From assembly GCA_028819075.1 (NCBI GenBank), contig JAPPMM010000014.1, positions 124,001 through 188,000 on the forward strand: 64,000 nt of DNA. Direction: 5' to 3'. Below, piece after piece: positions 27,585 through 42,513 of the stretch (position 1 is the stretch's first letter; every line of letters starts with the position of its first letter). A program made the translations under genes and the position numbers. The DNA comes from Gammaproteobacteria bacterium (GTDB taxonomy: Bacteria; Gemmatimonadota; Gemmatimonadetes; Longimicrobiales; Gaopeijiaceae). The notes beneath the pieces are model-generated. The model searched no databases and had not been told where the DNA came from. It worked only from the letters and a program-made list of their open reading frames with translations.

Positions 27585-28934
27585 CTACGGCTCGTCCGAC
27601 GCCAGCCTCGTGCGCTCCCGCAGCAGCCGCTGGTAGTCCTCTTCGCTCAGGTAGGTGATCCCCACCCAGGCGTGCGACATCTCGTCCACCCCGCGGGCGC
27701 CGAACAATACCCACTGGTCCGGATCCGGATTGATGGGATTGTTGGCGGTATTGTCGAACTGCGAGTGGAAGAGGAGGACTGTGCCTTTGGGCAGCAGCGG
27801 CTGCACTTCGTCTTCGTAGATGTAGGCGATCTGCCAGTTGTGGTTGTACTGGTTCACGCGGCTGAGCATCTCGCGGCGACCATCGGGATAGATGGCCTCC
27901 ATCGACATCGCGGTGCCGCGCATGTGCATGTGGGGCCGGAAACTCTGCAAGAGTGCCGGCTGGTCGAGCACGTAGGCGTGTTCCAGGGTCAGGTAGCCGT
28001 GCGGCGGGATGATCAGGTCGCGGGCGCGCGGGCCCGTCCTGAATGTGCCATCGATGAGGTGGCGCTGTTCACCCGCGGATGACAGCTCCGGCTCGTAGCC
28101 TGGCGGGTAAAGCCAGACGCCGGCCTCGACCACGTCGTCCGGAACCGGGGTGCCGATCGGGAAATAGTGGAGCCCCCAGGAGATCCGCGCCGGCCCGGGA
28201 AGCAGGAGCTTTCCCACGCCGTCGGGCAGCTTGTCCCAGCGCTTGCCGACGCCCATGCCGACCAGCTCCATGCGGTAGCCGTCCTGCACGAAGCGCACGT
28301 GTCCGTGGTGCACGACCTTGACGCCCAGCGGATACGAGGGCTTGAACTCCGCCGCCCGGATCCAGCGGCGCTCGGCGAGCCCCTCGAACTCCACGGTGTG
28401 GTCCCACCACTGGTCCTGGCCGTTGGCGACGACCGTGAACGGCTCCGAGCGCACCACGAAGTCGGGCGGGCCCAGCTCCGCCTCGAGCTCCCATTCGTAC
28501 GCGGGCGGATACTCGATGGGCGGCGGCATGTCGGCAGCGTCACCCTCGGGCGCGCCCGCGTCGGCCCACTGCACGATGGTGGCGATCTCTTCGTCGCTGA
28601 GCGAGATGTCGTTCTCGTACTCCTGGATGCCGACCGTCTTGTCGAGGTGCCAGGGCGGCATGATGCGCTGTTCGACGCGGTAGCGGATGAGCGGTGCGAA
28701 CGGAACCGTCTGCTCGTAGGTGAGGAGCGGCATGGGGCCGATGCCGTCCGGCCGGTGACACTGCTGGCACGAGCGCTGGATGATGGGCGCGACATCCCGC
28801 GACCAGGTGGGCGCGTCGTTGCCGGTCGACATGGCGACCTCGACGCCTGCGGGGCCCGCGTCCGCATTCTGGGCAGCGGTGGGTGCGCCCCAGGCAAACC
28901 CGAGGATCAGCGGAAGTGTCATCAGGCGGCTCAT
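27585..28934 (-). CDS. Cytochrome c-copper type II monooxygenase-like protein
   Basis: A 449-residue exported protein fusing a c-type cytochrome to a fold like PHM/dopamine-beta-monooxygenase. After a leader (residues 1-22) comes heme motif CQQCH (residues 56-60). The copper-ligand pattern follows: HHGH (site-H pair), LHYFP, HMHMRG (HxH), and a Met in VDEMSHAW. FHSQFDNTANNP is also typical of this family. It probably hydroxylates or oxidises an organic substrate in the periplasm with electrons delivered by the fused cytochrome. Its ATG overlaps the stop of the upstream partner gene as ATGA. The substrate is unknown. Confidence 0.82.
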   Translation of the reverse strand: MSRLMTLPLILGFAWGAPTAAQNADAGPAGVEVAMSTGNDAPTWSRDVAPIIQRSCQQCHRPDGIGPMPLLTYEQTVPFAPLIRYRVEQRIMPPWHLDKTVGIQEYENDISLSDEEIATIVQWADAGAPEGDAADMPPPIEYPPAYEWELEAELGPPDFVVRSEPFTVVANGQDQWWDHTVEFEGLAERRWIRAAEFKPSYPLGVKVVHHGHVRFVQDGYRMELVGMGVGKRWDKLPDGVGKLLLPGPARISWGLHYFPIGTPVPDDVVEAGVWLYPPGYEPELSSAGEQRHLIDGTFRTGPRARDLIIPPHGYLTLEHAYVLDQPALLQSFRPHMHMRGTAMSMEAIYPDGRREMLSRVNQYNHNWQIAYIYEDEVQPLLPKGTVLLFHSQFDNTANNPINPDPDQWVLFGARGVDEMSHAWVGITYLSEEDYQRLLRERTRLASDEP

Positions 28935-29875
28935 CGGCCTACCTCCACATGCAGATATCCGTTGGTCCAGCAACACTGGAATTCGAACTCGGGCACCCGG
29001 TTGTACGCAAGTACGCGCACGACGTAGCTGCCCGGCTCGCTGAAGGTCGCGACCGTGGTCACCGCCGCCCCGCCCTCCGCGCTCCACGCCTCATGAGAGA
29101 CCTCGAGCTCGGACTCGCCGAAGGCGACCCGGCCGGGCCCACGGTGCTTGAACCACTTGATGCGGATGGGCCTCTCGTCCTCGGGAAAGACGCCGTCGCG
29201 ATGGGTCCACGCGATCAGCCGCACGGCTTCGCCCGCCATGACATTCGCGGGCCCCGCCGCCGTCACCCCGGCCGGGCCCTGGCCTCCGGGACCATCGCGC
29301 TCCAGCCGCAGCACCGGCGAGGAACTCTCCCGTCCCGGAAAAACCCATCCGTTGATCTGGTACTGTGTGCTCCGGATGCGTCCGGGAACCGAATACGTGC
29401 GCCCATCGTGGCGCAGGCTCCAGACCACGTCGCCGTCGCCGAAGTCGGACGGGACCTTCACCGTGAAGACCCCCCAGTGGCGGCGGTCGCCCTCGGGGAC
29501 CGGGAGAAAGTGGGTGGGCTGGATGCCATCGAAGATGGCGGGCTCGATGACGTTGTCCGGGCCCTGCGGAATCTCCAGGACCTCCTCGGTGTTCACGTTG
29601 AAGTAGCCGAAGGAGAGGGCGTAGGAGCCGTCCGGCATCGGGTACCAGCCCTCGAAGATGGGGATCACCGGCCCGCCCGAGGGGCGCAGGAAGTCGAGGT
29701 TGAACTGGGTCTCGCCGGGCTCTGCGACCCGCTGCTGGGACGCGCGCGGGAGTTGAGCTTCGAGCGGCGACGATGCGAAGACGGACACCGCGAGCACCGA
29801 GGCCACGGCAAGGGCGTGTGCCCGAGCCTGCGTCCATCGCCCCAAACCGGGCGCACGAGGAGCCATGAGGGCCAT
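28931..29875 (-). CDS. Secreted protein of the redox cassette, unknown function
   Basis: A 314-residue protein with a signal peptide (about residues 15-41, SSPLEAQ). It is rich in beta-strand patterns, with a GGPVIPIFEGWYPMPDGSY segment and a C-terminal Ig/FN3-like part (GSYVVRVLAYNRV) ending in an FQCCWTNGYLHVEV segment with adjacent cysteines. I do not recognise a named family. It is tightly sandwiched between the PQQ dehydrogenase (2 bases upstream) and the copper monooxygenase (4-base overlap), so it is likely a structural or substrate-binding partner of these enzymes. Confidence 0.8.
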   Translation of the reverse strand: MALMAPRAPGLGRWTQARAHALAVASVLAVSVFASSPLEAQLPRASQQRVAEPGETQFNLDFLRPSGGPVIPIFEGWYPMPDGSYALSFGYFNVNTEEVLEIPQGPDNVIEPAIFDGIQPTHFLPVPEGDRRHWGVFTVKVPSDFGDGDVVWSLRHDGRTYSVPGRIRSTQYQINGWVFPGRESSSPVLRLERDGPGGQGPAGVTAAGPANVMAGEAVRLIAWTHRDGVFPEDERPIRIKWFKHRGPGRVAFGESELEVSHEAWSAEGGAAVTTVATFSEPGSYVVRVLAYNRVPEFEFQCCWTNGYLHVEVGR

Positions 29876-29877
29876 CC

Positions 29878-32142
29878 TCAGGGCTCGCTCAGCTTGAAGA
29901 CATAGAGCGCGTTGTGGCCCTCGGGACTCACCAGCTCCGGGGTCAGGAAGGTAGGGATGCGCCACGGGCTGCCTCCCCCGCGCGCCGTCGCCACCGCGAC
30001 ATACTGCACGCCGTCGACCTCATAGGAAATCGGATAGCCCATCACCGAGGTGCCCAGGCGGCTCCGCCACAGCACCTCGCCGGTGCGGACGTCGTAGGCG
30101 CGGATCCAGCGGTCGAAGTCGCCGACGAAGACAAGGCCGCCCGCGGTGGTCAGCGCCGCGGTCAGGAAGGGCGAGCGCTGCTCGATGCTCCACACCTCGT
30201 CGAGGGTCGCCACGTCGTAGGCGGCCAGCTTGCCGAAGTTGCCGTCGGTCCCGGGCATCTCCATCCAGGCACGGTCGCCCTGGTTGCCCCCGGAGCCGGG
30301 CTCGAGCACGGTCTCCCGCCCCGCGATCTCCATGCAGCTCTGGCTCAGCGGAGTGACCAGGAGGCCGGACTCCGGATGATATCCGCTCGCGGGCCAGTTG
30401 TGGCCGCCGGCGGTGGAGGGACATACGGAGAGCCACTCGCCGACTTTGGCGTTGGCAATATCATCTCTATATTTGACGGCGCCCGTCTCATAATCGACAT
30501 CCAATATATTCTGATATACGGTCTCGGTAAGTCCCAGGAACGCCCCGTCGCGCCGGTCCAGTTTCCAGAGGATGCCGTGCTTGCCGATTGAGATGACTGT
30601 AGGTTCGCCATTCACGTCCAGCAGCACCCGCTCGAGCGCCTCGTCCATGTCCAGCGATTCTCCGGGGACGTGGATGTAGTACCAGGCGATGGTGCCGTCC
30701 TCGACGCGGAGCGCGAGGGTGGAGTTGGCGTAGGCGGTGGAGTCGGCGGTGGTGAGGCCCCGGCTCGCGGCCACCCAGGGCTTGGCCTGGGCGGTGCCGA
30801 AGTAGACCAGTCCGACCTCCGGATCCCAGCTGCCCGTCATCCAGACGTCGGCCCCGCCGCGCAGGCCGAAGGGGAGGTCGCCCCAGGTGTCGCCGCCGGG
30901 CTCGCCCGGACGCGCCACGGTGTGGGTGCGCCAGAGTTCGCGGCCGGTGCGGGCGTCGTGGGCGGTGATGAAGCAGCTCTCCTCATGGAAGCGCCCGCAG
31001 CCGTTGATGCCGTTGATGACCCTGCCGTCGGCGACGATGGGGCCGGTGCTGTTCGAGTAGCCCTTCTCGGGATCGGCAATGCGGGTCTCCCAGCGGACGG
31101 ACCCGGTGGCGGCGTCGAGCGCGACCATGTGGGCGTCGGCAGTGGCTACGAAGACCATGTCCTCCCATATGGCCAGGGTGCGCAGTTGTCCGCGCGGGCC
31201 GCCCTCGAAGCGCCGGCGGTACTCCCATAGCGGGGTGCCGTCGGCCGCGTCCAGCGCCTGCACCACGTTGCCGGGATTGCTGAGGAAGAGGACCCCGTCG
31301 CGCACCAGCGGCGCCTGCTGACTGCGCCCGTCCTCCATCCCCCACGACCAGGCGAGCTGCAGGCGGTGGACGTTCGAGGCGTCGATCTGGTCGAGCGGGC
31401 TGTACCCCCACGAGCCCGGATTGCCGCGCCAGTGCAGCCAGTCGGCCGCGGGGGGGTCGGCCAGGTCGGCGTCGGAGGCGGGGGTCGGCCGGGCAGGGCG
31501 CCAGGTGCGCGTCACGCCGGTCGGGGTTTCGCTGACGTCGCCGACCCCGCCCGGTGGCGGTCCGGTCAGCGCGTGCGGCGAGTGGCCGGTGCCGGGACGG
31601 CCGGGGACGGGAGGGACGACGGCGGGCGCGGAGGTGTCTTGTTGGGACCCGGACGCATCGCCGGACGCCTGGTCCGCGTCGGCCTCCGCGCCGGGCGGGT
31701 CTTGCCCCGGCTGCAGCAGCGCTGCCCCGGCGACCGGCGCGCCCGCAAGCGACACCCCTCCCAGGGTTCCCCCGTTTTCCCGAATGATGTACGCAACGAC
31801 CGCCGCGTACTCCGCATCGCTCAGGGATTCCGGGGCATCCTCCGGCATGGTCGACCGGATGTTCTCGAGCAGCTCGCCGATCGGCTCGTTCCCCCACGCC
31901 CGGAGAAAGCTCCGGCCGGCGAGTTCCGGGGCCTCGAAGTCACCGCGGAGATTGGCGAGGTGGCAGTCCGCGCAGGCCTCGCGGTACACGGCCTCCCCCG
32001 CCACGGCCTGCTCATGGGTGTAGGTCGGCCCGCCGGTTGCCTCCATCTGCTGGCCAGCAATCGGACAGGGCGCCGCCGCGGCGGTGATGGCCAACGCCAC
32101 AACAGCCACCGGCAACAGCAGAGGCCTCATTCCTGGCGACAC
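29878..32142 (-). CDS. PQQ-dependent dehydrogenase with N-terminal cytochrome c
   Basis: A 754-residue periplasmic quinoprotein. A leader occupies about residues 1-31, a cytochrome c domain with CADCH (57-61) spans to about 130, and a Pro/Ala-rich linker follows. An eight-bladed beta-propeller with repeated W-docking motifs ([30 protein letters not shown]) makes up the rest. It is expected to oxidise an alcohol or sugar and pass electrons to the fused heme. An N-terminal heme domain differs from the classical C-terminal one in type II alcohol dehydrogenases. It is the first gene of a three-gene cassette. Confidence 0.88.
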
Positions 32143-32286: not shown

Positions 32287-33507
32287 TCAGGCTCCGTCTC
32301 GCGTCAGCCGCAGGACCTGCGGATGTTCGACATCCAGTTCGTCGCGCCAGACGCCGAGCACCGCCTCCATCGTGATGTCGGTAACGCTGAAGCGATCCGG
32401 ATTTTGAACGGTCCCCAGCCAGGTGCCATCGGCATCCAGAATGAGCCATTCCTGCGGCCGGTCCTGTTCGCTTCCGCCTCGATAGAGTTCGAGCCAGACC
32501 GCGCCTGAAGGATCGACAAGCATGTTGGCGTATGCCGGCCGGGTGACAGGCGCGGGCAACGCCTCGACCGTCCTCCGGAGCCAAGGGGGAAGCGTCATGC
32601 CGGGAGGAAGATCGACATCGAGACGGGAAGCCCGTTCCGCTGCAACCTGACCGTCGGTCAAACCCAGGGGATAGTCGGGGATGCGCAGGATGCGGGCGAT
32701 GTCCCCTGCAGGGCTCAGTTCTTCAACCTGCATGACGTCTGACGGACCGTAGAAGACGCGCGATCCTTGCGCGGCCATCTGCGCTTCCTTGGCGAACAGC
32801 GCCGGTCCGGTTCCGGCGTTGTCCTCATACGAGAACGAATAGGACTCACGTCCCGGCCGCACGCCGATACTGTCGATCCAGGCACCGTCCAGGTCGAACC
32901 GGACCAGCGCCGTGGGCGGACGAATCAGTTGGTTGGCAACTTCCTCCAATCCGGTCCACACGGTGGACTCGCCGAGCAGTGTGCCATCCCCCAAGTAATG
33001 AATGTCGTCAACATTGAAGGGCAGCGCGAAGACCCGGACCAACTCCATATCCGGACCCACCACGGTGACTCGTCCGTCGTAGTCGAGCACAAACACCGTG
33101 TCGGCTACGAGTTTCACCCGCTGAAGGTTGCTGAACTCCCCCGGGCCCTCCCCCGGACCACCCATCGCGCCAAGAAACTCCCCGTCGGCGGAGTAGAAGC
33201 GGAGCTCCTGCGAGGCTCGATCGGCGAGCACCAGGGAGCCGTCCGGGCGCTGTTTCAGGCCGCGGACCCGGAAGAACTCGTGGGCCGGGCCGCTGCCGGA
33301 CAGAGTGAGGTCGACGAGCGGGTCAGGACCGATGCTCCACCGGCTGGAATCGCCCCAGAGCGGCCGCGTCGCCTCGACGATCTCGATTCCCGCGCTGTCC
33401 CGCTGGACGACAAGGGGCGAGCCGGAATCCTGGGTCACGCAGGAGGCCAGGCCGCACAGGAGCAGTACGGCAACACCCCAAAGGCCGGCGGTCGAATGTG
33501 TCGGCAT
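32287..33507 (-). CDS. Six-bladed beta-propeller lipoprotein, paralogue A
   Basis: About 406 residues with a lipobox (LASC) after a hydrophobic leader, so it is lipid-anchored. It begins with PLVVQRDSAGIEIVEATRPLWG, shared with the next two genes, and contains GEGPGEF with repeated strands typical of NHL-like six-bladed propellers. The end is DVEHPQVLRLTRDGA. Starts at 33507, 33513 and 33525 are in frame; the leader fits 33507 best. It is the last of three tandem paralogues. Function is unknown. Confidence 0.83.
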   Translation of the reverse strand: MPTHSTAGLWGVAVLLLCGLASCVTQDSGSPLVVQRDSAGIEIVEATRPLWGDSSRWSIGPDPLVDLTLSGSGPAHEFFRVRGLKQRPDGSLVLADRASQELRFYSADGEFLGAMGGPGEGPGEFSNLQRVKLVADTVFVLDYDGRVTVVGPDMELVRVFALPFNVDDIHYLGDGTLLGESTVWTGLEEVANQLIRPPTALVRFDLDGAWIDSIGVRPGRESYSFSYEDNAGTGPALFAKEAQMAAQGSRVFYGPSDVMQVEELSPAGDIARILRIPDYPLGLTDGQVAAERASRLDVDLPPGMTLPPWLRRTVEALPAPVTRPAYANMLVDPSGAVWLELYRGGSEQDRPQEWLILDADGTWLGTVQNPDRFSVTDITMEAVLGVWRDELDVEHPQVLRLTRDGA

Positions 33508-33539
33508 TGTCATTTGGCCTTCCATTGATCTTCGGGTTG

Positions 33540-34745
33540 TCAGTTACGCGTCAGCCGCAGCACCTGCAGGTGCTCGACATCCAGCTCATCCTCGCGGACG
33601 CCGAGCACGGTGTCCATCGTGACTTCCATGACCGTGAAGCGCCGCGGAACCTCGACGATCCCCAGCCAGGTCCCGTCTGCGTCCAGGACCACCCACTCCC
33701 GAGGCTGGTCCTGCTCGCTCTCTCCCCGGAAGAGCTCGAGCCAGATGGCCCCCGAGGGATCGACAAGGATTTCGGCGTAGGCGGGTCGGGTCCTCGCGTC
33801 AGGCAGGTCTTCGGCCAACCTCCGGAAAACCGATGTCGATCCGGGCCGAAATCCCCCGAGACGGGCATCACGCTCAGCAGCCACCTGGGCATCGCGCAGG
33901 TCCAGGGGATAGCCGGGAATGCGAATGATGCGCACAAGACTCCCGGTCATATCCAGCTCTTCCACCTGCATGGTTATGGCCGAACCCCGAAAGATGCGCT
34001 GTCCGAGCACGGCGATGTGGGATGTCTTGCCGAAGAGGGGCGGGGCCCCCGCGACCATTCCGTCCCGGACGTATGCATAGCTCTCGGTGCCGCGCGTCTC
34101 GCCGATGCTGTCGATCCGAACCCCATCCAGATCGAATAGAATCAGAGGCTCCGCATGCCGATTCACTTCGTTGGGGACATTCCCCTGCGGCCCCGGCGAA
34201 TAGCTCTCCGTCAGGATTGCGCCGCTGCCCAGGTAATGCAGGTTGTTCGTGAACGGAGCGAGAGTGAAGGTGCGAACCACTGCGAGGTCGGGAGCGGCCA
34301 CCGTGACGCGTCCCCTGCCCAGTGCGAGCAGCGTGTCGCCCGCATGGTCGATCGCCTGCAGGCCTCTGAATTCGCCGGGACCGTCTCCCCGACCACCGAA
34401 GGACCCCAGGAAGTCGCCGGTTGCGGAGTACAGCCGCACCTCCCGGGAGCCGCCATCGCCAACCACGATAGAGCCGTCCGGCCGCTGCTTCACGCCTCGG
34501 ACGCGGAAGAACTCGTGGGGCGTGCCGCCGCCGGAGAGCGTGAGGTCGACGAGGGGCTCCGGATCGATGCTCCAGAGGCTGGCGTTGCCCCAGAGAGGCC
34601 GCGTCGCTTCGATGATCTCGACGCCGGCGCTGTCGCGCTGGACAACAAGGGGCGGGCTGGGGTCCTGACCGGCGGCGAACGAAGGCAACGCGTATAGCAG
34701 GAGAACGGCGGCGCAGGGCAGTATGTCAGCCGGATGTGTCGTCAT
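33540..34745 (-). CDS. Six-bladed beta-propeller protein, paralogue B
   Basis: A 401-residue tandem paralogue. The leader ends FAAGQ without a lipobox Cys, so this copy is predicted to be soluble in the periplasm while paralogues A and C are lipid-anchored. The core begins PPLVVQRDSAGVEIIEA and contains GRGDGPGEF. Its 3' end matches the other two copies closely at the DNA level (CTCAGCC/GTCAGCC-GCAGCACCTGC region read on plus). The start at 34745 was chosen because the preceding 18 residues are not leader-like. It lies 32 bases upstream of paralogue A. Confidence 0.83.
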   Translation of the reverse strand: MTTHPADILPCAAVLLLYALPSFAAGQDPSPPLVVQRDSAGVEIIEATRPLWGNASLWSIDPEPLVDLTLSGGGTPHEFFRVRGVKQRPDGSIVVGDGGSREVRLYSATGDFLGSFGGRGDGPGEFRGLQAIDHAGDTLLALGRGRVTVAAPDLAVVRTFTLAPFTNNLHYLGSGAILTESYSPGPQGNVPNEVNRHAEPLILFDLDGVRIDSIGETRGTESYAYVRDGMVAGAPPLFGKTSHIAVLGQRIFRGSAITMQVEELDMTGSLVRIIRIPGYPLDLRDAQVAAERDARLGGFRPGSTSVFRRLAEDLPDARTRPAYAEILVDPSGAIWLELFRGESEQDQPREWVVLDADGTWLGIVEVPRRFTVMEVTMDTVLGVREDELDVEHLQVLRLTRN

Positions 34746-34800
34746 TGTCCTTCGCGTCCATGGACGTCGGACATCCAATCTACGTGTCTGTCGGGCCACT

Positions 34801-35976
34801 TCAATTCCGCCTCAGCCGCAGCACCTGCGGATGTTGGACATCCAGTTCGTCCCTCCAGATACCGAGCACGGCGTCCATGGTGATATCCGACACGGTGAAT
34901 CGGTCCGGGATCTCCACGGTCCCGAGCCAGGTCCCGTCGGTATCCAGCACCAGCCATTCCTGGGGCTGATCCTGCTCGCTCTGCCCACGGAAGAGCTCGA
35001 GCCAGACCGCCCCCGAGGGATCGACCAGGATGTCGTCGTAGGCGGGGCGTGTGTCCGACGCGGGCGCGTCTTCGAACCCCTGCCGGAAGGGGGAGCCGGG
35101 CGAAAGTCGATCAAGAAGAAAACCCCGCTCTGCGGCGATCTGGGCGGCGCTCAGGTCCAGCGGATAGCCGGGCACCCGCAGGATGCGCACGAGATTCCCG
35201 GACGTGTCCCGTTCCTGCACCTGCATCAAGTCGTTGGCGCCACTGAAGATTCGCCGTCCCATGGTCGCGATGTGGGATGACTTGCCGAAGAACACGCCGA
35301 CCGACCCGCCGGATATGTAAAGCTCGGGGCCCTGCATCTCGCCGATGCTGTCGATCCGCTCTCCTTCCAGATCGTAGGTGATCAGGGGCACCGGAGGCCG
35401 AATCCGTCCGGCAACGCCAGCCGGTGGCAATACCAGCGCCCGCAGCTCCGGCAGGATCGCTCCGGAGTCCAAATAGTGCAGGTCGAGCGTCAAGGGAGGG
35501 ATGTTGAAGGTCCTGACCACGGTCAGATCCGGAGCGACGACAGTGACCCGTCCATCGGAATCCATGGCCAACAGAGTGTCTCCGGCATTCTCTATCACGT
35601 ACAGGCTCCTGAATTCGCCCGGACCTTCTCCGCTCCCGCCGAAGGAGCCCCGGAACTCACCGTCGGCGGAAAACAGCCGTACCTCCAGCGAGCTCCGATC
35701 GGCAATCATGAGAGAGCCGTCCGGCCGCTGCTTCATGCTACCGGACCGAAAGAACTCGTGAGCCGGACCGCTGCCCGTGAGCGTGAGGTCCACGACTGGA
35801 TCCGGATCGATGTGCCAAAGGCTCGAGTCACCCCAGAGCGGCCGCATGGCCTCGACGATCTCGATGCCGGCGCTGTCGCGCTGGACGACGAGGGGCGGGG
35901 CATCGATTCCACCTGCACAGGCGGCAACACAGGGCAGCAGGACTACCCACAGGTACATCACGGTCGGGCGATTCAT
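34801..35976 (-). CDS. Six-bladed beta-propeller lipoprotein, paralogue C
   Basis: A 391-residue lipoprotein (lipobox VAACAG). It shares PPLVVQRDSAGIEIVEAMRPLW, GEGPGEF and LDVQHPQVLRLRRN with its two downstream paralogues. It is the first of the tandem trio and begins at 35976 (MNRPTVMYLW leader). The three genes repeat with a period of about 1.25 kb, pointing to local duplication followed by divergence. No partner transporter or enzyme is adjacent apart from the serine hydrolase upstream. Confidence 0.83.
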   Translation of the reverse strand: MNRPTVMYLWVVLLPCVAACAGGIDAPPLVVQRDSAGIEIVEAMRPLWGDSSLWHIDPDPVVDLTLTGSGPAHEFFRSGSMKQRPDGSLMIADRSSLEVRLFSADGEFRGSFGGSGEGPGEFRSLYVIENAGDTLLAMDSDGRVTVVAPDLTVVRTFNIPPLTLDLHYLDSGAILPELRALVLPPAGVAGRIRPPVPLITYDLEGERIDSIGEMQGPELYISGGSVGVFFGKSSHIATMGRRIFSGANDLMQVQERDTSGNLVRILRVPGYPLDLSAAQIAAERGFLLDRLSPGSPFRQGFEDAPASDTRPAYDDILVDPSGAVWLELFRGQSEQDQPQEWLVLDTDGTWLGTVEIPDRFTVSDITMDAVLGIWRDELDVQHPQVLRLRRN

Positions 35977-36073
35977 GGGCCCCTCCGGCTCGGCAAGGGT
36001 CAGACGGTCACGCGCAGTTTCCAACTCAGCCCTTCCCCCGAAGGCCTGCGTCACCCTGGTTCACTCCGCCTCG

Positions 36074-41508: not shown

Positions 41509-42513
41509 CTACCGCACCCGCATGTACTTGCGCAGCATGCGCGGTCCCACCTCCGCCCCGTATACGTTGCCGAAGGCGTCCGCCGCCACCCCTTCGGCCC
41601 CGGTGGTGCCCCGCACATACACGTGCCAGTCGGGATCCGGGATGAAGGAGGTGACCAGCCCGTCTACCACGCTGCCGATGCGGATGCCGCGCACCCAGCC
41701 GGCGTTGGGTATGCCGCCGCCGGTGGAGGACTCGGAATCGGCCGAATAGAGCACGTCGTTGGCGTCGATGAACAGCCCGCTGGGCCGGCCGAACTGGGTC
41801 CAGGTGTCCAGGTGGTTGCCGTCCTGGTCGAAGATCTGCAGGCGGTTGTTCTTGCGGTCGCCGACGAAGAGCCGGCCCCGGGAATCCATCGCCAGCGCGT
41901 GGGGATCGCGGAACTCGCCGTTCTCGGCCCCGGTGCTGCCCCACTCCATGATGAAGTCGCCCGCGCTGTTGAACTTGACGATGCGGTTGTTGCCGCCGGT
42001 GCCGTGGCCATCGGCTACGAAGATGTCGCCGTTGGGAGCCACCAGGACGTCGGACGGCTGGTCGAAGGTGTCGGGTCCGTCGCCGGCCACACCGGCCTGA
42101 CCCAGGCTCATCATGAGCTCGCCCACGGGGGTGAACTTGTGCACCTGGTGGCCGCGCCGTTCGCCCCCGCGCGCGTCGGTGACCCAGAGGTTGCCATCGG
42201 GGTCGACGTGAATGCCGTGCGGCCACTCGAACATCCCCGCGCCGAAGCTGCGCAGCAGATTGCCGTCTACGTCGAAGAGCAGGACGGGATCGAGGTCGTC
42301 GTGGCCCACGCAGGTGTTCTCGCCGCAGCGCTCGGCCACCCAGATGTTGCCGTCGGCGGCGGGATAGACGGCGCTGGTCGAGCCCCAGGTGCGGTCCTCG
42401 GGCAACTCGCCCCAGACGTCCGGCACCGCGCGGTAGGGATTGGGCGCGTGGTTCTGGGCGAGGACGGGCATCGCGAAGGTGAGGGACAGGGCGAGCAGGA
42501 GCAGCTTCTTCAT
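41509..42513 (-). CDS. Secreted NHL-repeat protein
   Basis: A 334-residue protein with a clear signal peptide (MKKLLLLALSLTFAMPVLAQ). NHL repeats cover the rest: WPHGIHVDPDGNLWVTDARG, QPSDVLVAPNGDIFVADGHG and DPHALAMDSRGRLFVGDRKNNRLQIF. It is a six-bladed beta-propeller resembling the 19807 lipoprotein in repeat sequence but not anchored. Palindromic GTTGCC/GGCAAC elements lie about 145 bases upstream (42645-42695) and may regulate it. Function is unknown. Confidence 0.87.
   Translation of the reverse strand: MKKLLLLALSLTFAMPVLAQNHAPNPYRAVPDVWGELPEDRTWGSTSAVYPAADGNIWVAERCGENTCVGHDDLDPVLLFDVDGNLLRSFGAGMFEWPHGIHVDPDGNLWVTDARGGERRGHQVHKFTPVGELMMSLGQAGVAGDGPDTFDQPSDVLVAPNGDIFVADGHGTGGNNRIVKFNSAGDFIMEWGSTGAENGEFRDPHALAMDSRGRLFVGDRKNNRLQIFDQDGNHLDTWTQFGRPSGLFIDANDVLYSADSESSTGGGIPNAGWVRGIRIGSVVDGLVTSFIPDPDWHVYVRGTTGAEGVAADAFGNVYGAEVGPRMLRKYMRVR

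Follow-up and report, generated by a model that had tools for sequence, protein, structure and literature searches.

The window, a stretch of 64,000 nucleotides from a marine-type Gemmatimonadota (host genome of 4.4 Mb in 65 contigs), contains on its minus strand, between 27585 and 32142, a gene for a PQQ dehydrogenase followed by genes for a middle protein, here MID, and for a predicted heme c-dicopper monooxygenase. The question raised by this locus is whether the three proteins form one exported oxidation unit. The sequence-only reading had proposed that they do, with the two enzymes hydroxylating and then oxidising a substrate in the periplasm and the middle protein serving as their scaffold.

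Public labels of the close relatives disagree, being Gemmatimonadetes, the BD2-11 clade or Gammaproteobacteria. The contigs L136, L138 and L141 are nearly identical to the genus and are labelled Gammaproteobacteria or BD2-11, while other such records are labelled Gemmatimonadetes.

Gene layout and protein domains

The three genes lie where they had first been placed (Table 1), and their spacing bears out the claim of translational linkage. The best start of MID is the ATG at 29875, separated from the dehydrogenase stop by a 2-nt gap; the monooxygenase ATG at 28934 overlaps the MID stop as ATGA, with GGAGGT just upstream. Judged by eye, all three proteins begin with a Sec-type signal sequence, in agreement with the proposed export.

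Table 1 Features of the three-gene locus, in coordinates of the window
Feature	Positions	Strand	Basis or detail
PQQ dehydrogenase (P0001, 754 aa), exported, heme c	29878..32142	-	PF13442 + PF01011
MID, middle protein (P0002, 314 aa), unnamed family	28931..29875	-	signal sequence + beta domains, Ig-like at least over 134-314
Heme c-dicopper monooxygenase, PHM/DBH fold (449 aa)	27585..28934	-	predicted model
Dehydrogenase heme c motif CADCH (C57-H61)	31960..31974	-	sequence
MID vicinal cysteines C301-C302, part of CCW.N motif	28970..28975	-	78/78 aligned MIDs
Monooxygenase heme c motif CQQCH (C56-H60)	28755..28769	-	75/75 invariant
Copper ligand span H209, H210, H256 (CuH) + H335, H337, M419 (CuM)	27678..28310	-	75/75, 49/49

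Just upstream of the cassette and on the same strand, three tandem paralogous exported proteins are encoded at 32287-36054 (-). The first of them had no Pfam match, and other members of the genus have ORFs of similar length upstream of the cassette. An exported NHL-repeat protein encoded some 12 kb away from the monooxygenase gene (41509-42513, -) gave a match to PAL, the amidating lyase that makes up one half of animal PAM (3fvz, E 3.1e-27). As other NHL proteins score higher, this match does not imply PAL activity.

The domain calls made for the two enzymes hold. In the dehydrogenase, Pfam recognised a cytochrome c domain (PF13442) at residues 45-119 and a PQQ domain (PF01011, E 4.1e-63) scoring 214 bits against a cut-off of 26.7. 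Its closest solved chains are the alcohol dehydrogenase 4cvb, 7wmd and the sorbose dehydrogenase 4mh1, and it stays below the NCBIfam cut-offs of TIGR03075 (348.6 vs 480.05 bits) and of TIGR04528 (Acido-empty-quinoprotein group A; 284.9 vs 650 bits). Conservation was read from alignments that retained 75/81 monooxygenases, 78/82 MIDs and 15/33 PQQ proteins after score and length filters, the window's own proteins included. All 15 PQQ proteins keep R321, E495, K521, N582 and W583.

The monooxygenase remains below the Pfam cut-offs for Cu2_monoox_C (PF03712; 17.2 bits vs 23) and Cytochrome_CBB3 (17.1 vs 27), PF01082 (Cu2_monooxygen) was not among its Pfam matches, and a PDB sequence search with this protein alone gave no match. 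A profile search reached DBH from the family at a best E of 0.0031, with very weak whole-protein similarity to PHM/DBH, and in the profile alignment the HH, H and HxH of the family fall on the same motifs in DBH, where they are the copper histidines. Structural searches were run with a predicted model of pLDDT 87.2. Ranks 1-31 in Foldseek were all PHM/DBH, as were rows 1-26 in VIA (Z 20.0-15.6), the next row having a Z of 7.6; the best VIA match was DBH 4zel (Z 20.0, rmsd 3.2 over 269), and PHM scored 18.9-15.6. The third protein is thus clearly predicted to adopt the two-domain PHM/DBH fold.

Residues C56, C59, H60, M92, H209, H210, H256, H335, H337 and M419 are identical in the 75 aligned monooxygenases and in all 49 of a second set. 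M92 is the probable second heme ligand, and the assignment of M419 to CuM rests on a conserved DEM motif after HxH together with the residue numbering of PHM. With PF13442 in the dehydrogenase and an invariant CQQCH in the monooxygenase, each enzyme carries its own cytochrome, as had been claimed. We infer that the protein loads copper and acts as an oxygenase.

The substrate residues of PHM, which we take to be R240, N316 and Y318 (PHM numbering), are not kept as a set, and PHM-like peptide specificity was rejected on this ground. The position two before HxH, an Arg in PHM, is R333 in 42/75 sequences and Gln in 33/75; two positions after the CuM Met, presumably where PHM has Asn316, the family has H421 in 74/75. 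W423 occurs in 61/75. The fold and copper sites are thus PHM-like, whereas the substrate pocket, with its variable R333 and with H421 in place of the PHM Asn, is not.

The description of the middle protein as unnamed and beta-rich also stands. MID had no Pfam family above cut-off and no NCBIfam match, and beyond the signal sequence its predicted model (pLDDT 85.5) consists almost wholly of beta structure. The VIA match list covers residues 134-314 and barely touches the N-terminal domain; over that span it gives generic Ig-like domains, the best being 2yhg (Z 10.3 over 109 residues), followed by complement proteins and pilus chaperones (Z about 9). Because these Ig-like matches are generic, the fold gives no function. 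Near the C-terminus, C301 and C302 of the CCW.N motif are invariant, and W303 and N305 are each found in 77/78. We quote these counts only from the 78 MIDs found by whole-protein search, because the motif patterns [QH]CCW[TS]N and GW..N.DG were themselves used to recruit the named MID set. The family has at least 527 confirmed relatives.

The vicinal cysteines and the pilus chaperones among the fold matches could be accommodated by a reading in which the copper protein is a copper or electron carrier, or a sensor, that has kept the PHM fold, and MID is a delivery or secretion chaperone with its cysteines as a copper or thiol site. We consider this improbable, given that the protein retains the full set of six ligands for two distinct PHM-type sites, which goes beyond a carrier's need, and that the Ig-like matches of MID are generic. 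In the reading that we favour, MID is most likely a subunit of the oxygenase, contributing stability, substrate capture or docking, and would be expected to bind it.

Linkage and spread of the MID-monooxygenase pair

In 79/82 cases in the relatives set and in 81/87 in the named set, MID has a monooxygenase gene on its own strand no more than 1.5 kb away, several of the exceptions being contig ends or fragments. The independent test of linkage was a two-way search of 59 genomes, in which MID was found within 2 kb of 78/100 monooxygenase matches and a monooxygenase within 2.5 kb of 88/99 MID matches. Both genes were present in 21 of these genomes, the monooxygenase only in 3, and a weak MID match only in 1. 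A further collection of 144 unique monooxygenase loci has MID at 139; as these loci were reached via MID (five of them via the PQQ gene), that figure is no independent test. Fusion of MID to the oxygenase was rejected as a line of evidence: none of the ORFs assigned contains both. By phylum label, 80 named loci divide into Gemmatimonadota (30), Pseudomonadota (26) and Acidobacteriota (24). The conserved unit is the pair of MID and monooxygenase, found in Gemmatimonadota, Acidobacteriota and Gammaproteobacteria.

The MIDs of Acidobacteriota (L142-L159) share 55-64% identity with the window's MID, and most of those from other Gemmatimonadota genera about 50% or less, a closeness that suggests transfer between phyla. 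The window's own genome has three MID-monooxygenase pairs, with a dehydrogenase beside the window's pair only. A divergent monooxygenase-MID pair lies at G000:C18:77477-80003; since the profile of 290 positions aligns with its MID only from 34 to 266, that MID may lack the C-terminal cysteine motif.

The sequence-only reading had held that rare co-occurrence elsewhere would speak against a three-gene set, and the triplet search showed otherwise. The triplet is present in all eight cassette-carrying genomes of the genus and in several other genera. Within the genus, it lies on one contig in G001, G002, G003, G004, G005, G007 and G009, the dehydrogenase running into the contig end in two of these; in G008 the contig stops after MID and the monooxygenase is on another contig. 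None of the three genes was seen in G006, which is 67% complete. Conservation of the triplet across the genus, and of the pair across three phyla, marks the cassette as more than chance.

The view of the three genes as one unit, however, did not survive wider sampling. In contrast to the near-constant pairing of MID and monooxygenase, a PQQ gene of the window's clade lies within 3 kb and on the same strand at only 17/144 monooxygenase loci, and any PQQ-propeller gene at 50/144. Viewed from the other side, 12/47 window-clade PQQ loci examined adjoin a pair (40 not previously known as linked, made up of 38 non-genus loci and 2 genus paralogues, plus 7 picked via MID). We therefore rejected the triplet as an obligate unit. 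The 17 loci show four gene orders: PQQ-MID-PHM at 7, which is the genus' own, MID-PHM-PQQ at 5, PQQ-PHM-MID at 3 and PHM-MID-PQQ at 2. The window's own genome has another heme c-PQQ dehydrogenase from the window's clade (58%), which stands alone at G000:C43:129372-131531; a similar heme c gene lies some 7 kb from it.

PQQ genes are nonetheless concentrated around the pair. Beside 126 unique pairs, chosen to exclude the genus and the five loci retrieved on account of a PQQ gene, the density of PQQ gene starts fell from 0.090 per kb in the first kb to 0.035 at 1-3 kb and then to 0.025 at 3-6 kb; the background in the window's own genome is 15 matches in 4403 kb. PQQ was also the commonest Pfam family among 112 neighbours drawn at random from 308 eligible (323 before a length filter), with 15/112, the next enzyme family being Amidase with 5/112. 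On a tree of 137 monooxygenases, the PQQ-linked label needs 11 changes, at least 9 of them forced by well-supported branches; the tree is a quick one with long branches that kept 16 of the 17 PQQ-linked rows, and the changes may be gains or losses. The link has thus been made or lost many times: the PQQ dehydrogenase is optional to the pair and was recruited to its side repeatedly. The proposed role of MID as a scaffold joining both enzymes falls with this result: MID occurs without the dehydrogenase and, the dehydrogenase being optional and repeatedly recruited, is the partner of the oxygenase rather than a bridge.

PQQ supply and electron routes

Use of PQQ by the dehydrogenase would depend on import. 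PqqC was absent from the window's own genome, from 35/35 genomes of the family and from 57/59 genomes searched, and in the own genome the PqqB and PqqE models stayed below cut-off (139.6 and 112.4 bits), on which grounds canonical PQQ synthesis was rejected. The same genome has one full-length PqqU-like TonB receptor (G000:C51:32687-34654; 33% identity, E 3.6e-75, the next match at 2.3e-10), so that PQQ is probably scavenged. PqqU is reported to be common among Gemmatimonadetes, with PQQ synthesis in no more than 23% of the organisms that carry the receptor (PMC12124388).

We favour, with moderate confidence, a two-protein periplasmic monooxygenase of PHM type that is driven by a cytochrome and free of ascorbate, with MID as its obligate Ig-like partner and with a PQQ dehydrogenase added to the operon, in this lineage and several others, to feed it electrons, oxidise its product, or both. 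Electrons would enter through the built-in N-terminal heme c, since fusion of heme c to an enzyme of PHM type would most simply replace ascorbate as the point of entry, and would pass on to the two copper sites; O2 would be used for C-H hydroxylation of a small or peptide-like substrate. The dehydrogenase, with imported PQQ, would oxidise an alcohol, which might be the very product of the oxygenase, and hand the electrons to the oxygenase by way of its heme c. Both this route and the nature of the substrate are what we infer.

There is a fungal precedent. A cytochrome-bearing PQQ dehydrogenase drives an LPMO, with strong coupling and a need for the cytochrome domain (PMC5960967). By analogy, the operon could do likewise with a PHM-type oxygenase, and the cycle may be closed should the dehydrogenase accept what the oxygenase produces. 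A tentative possibility is that the locus encodes a self-fuelling extracytoplasmic oxidase, in which a PHM-type monooxygenase running on heme c would be held by the new Ig-like family and the adjoining quinohemoprotein would oxidise the alcohol product, its two electrons paying for the next oxygen activation. Electron supply, for which PMC5960967 offers the precedent, and hydroxylation followed by oxidation are equally good accounts of what the dehydrogenase does.

Each of these accounts can also be taken alone. If the dehydrogenase oxidised an unrelated sugar or alcohol and only fed the oxygenase, as cellobiose or pyranose dehydrogenase feeds LPMOs, its repeated recruitment as an optional neighbour, in any of four gene orders, and the heme c on both enzymes would be readily understood, in line with the fungal case (PMC5960967). 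However, such a role leaves the recurrence of one dehydrogenase clade unexplained, and this clade stands alone at most examined loci; we regard it as somewhat unlikely. Alternatively, the oxygenase could hydroxylate and the dehydrogenase oxidise the resulting alcohol as successive catabolic steps, each enzyme sending electrons to the respiratory cytochrome pool or drawing them from it, with no direct coupling. The shared operon, the export of both enzymes and the standing of PQQ dehydrogenases as the commonest neighbours fit such a pathway, but most pairs lack an adjoining dehydrogenase, and we judge it unlikely. For the favoured cytochrome-driven monooxygenase, the fact that most pairs have no adjoining PQQ dehydrogenase and most dehydrogenases of the clade lie away from pairs indicates that soluble cytochrome c can probably serve as well.

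Comparison with known systems

A literature search, judged from its listings, found no paper on a bacterial MID-monooxygenase module; among papers with the Pfam names or accessions, judged by title, none dealt with such a bacterial system, and the accessible text of PMC10469786 contained no mention of monooxygenase, PQQ or copper. The pair with optional PQQ recruitment is thus widespread and apparently undescribed. If our reading is true, a bacterial branch that spans three phyla and combines a cytochrome of its own with a constant partner protein would represent another way to feed PHM/DBH copper sites. It would also offer a defined set of three proteins in which direct electron transfer from dehydrogenase to oxygenase could be tested, put a name to the large MID family, and connect copper oxygenation with the scavenging of PQQ by marine Gemmatimonadota.

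PHM/DBH chemistry is known mainly from animals and is based on ascorbate. The monooxygenase shares with PHM and DBH the two-domain fold and the ligand set of HH, H / HxH, M, at 14-18% identity in structural alignments, but differs from them in the heme c domain in front and in its obligate Ig-like partner gene, and from PHM in H421.

The dehydrogenase resembles the soluble PQQ alcohol and sorbose dehydrogenases (4cvb, 7wmd, 4mh1) in its PQQ propeller over residues 221-753, in R321 and K521 and in the blade cysteines C382/C390, and differs from them in its N-terminal heme c domain. Glu495 aligns with an Asp of 4cvb that we take to be the counterpart of the catalytic Asp of methanol dehydrogenase. 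Like the type II quinohemoprotein alcohol dehydrogenase (1kv9), it combines a PQQ propeller and a heme c domain in one chain; in that enzyme, however, the cytochrome is C-terminal, whereas here it is N-terminal, and the propeller of the window's dehydrogenase shows no vicinal Cys-Cys. At the level of the system, there is a likeness to the AA12 PQQ pyranose dehydrogenase that drives an LPMO in Coprinopsis, since here too a cytochrome-bearing PQQ dehydrogenase could reduce a copper monooxygenase; that system is fungal, its cytochrome carries heme b, and its oxygenase is an LPMO rather than a PHM-fold protein (PMC5960967).
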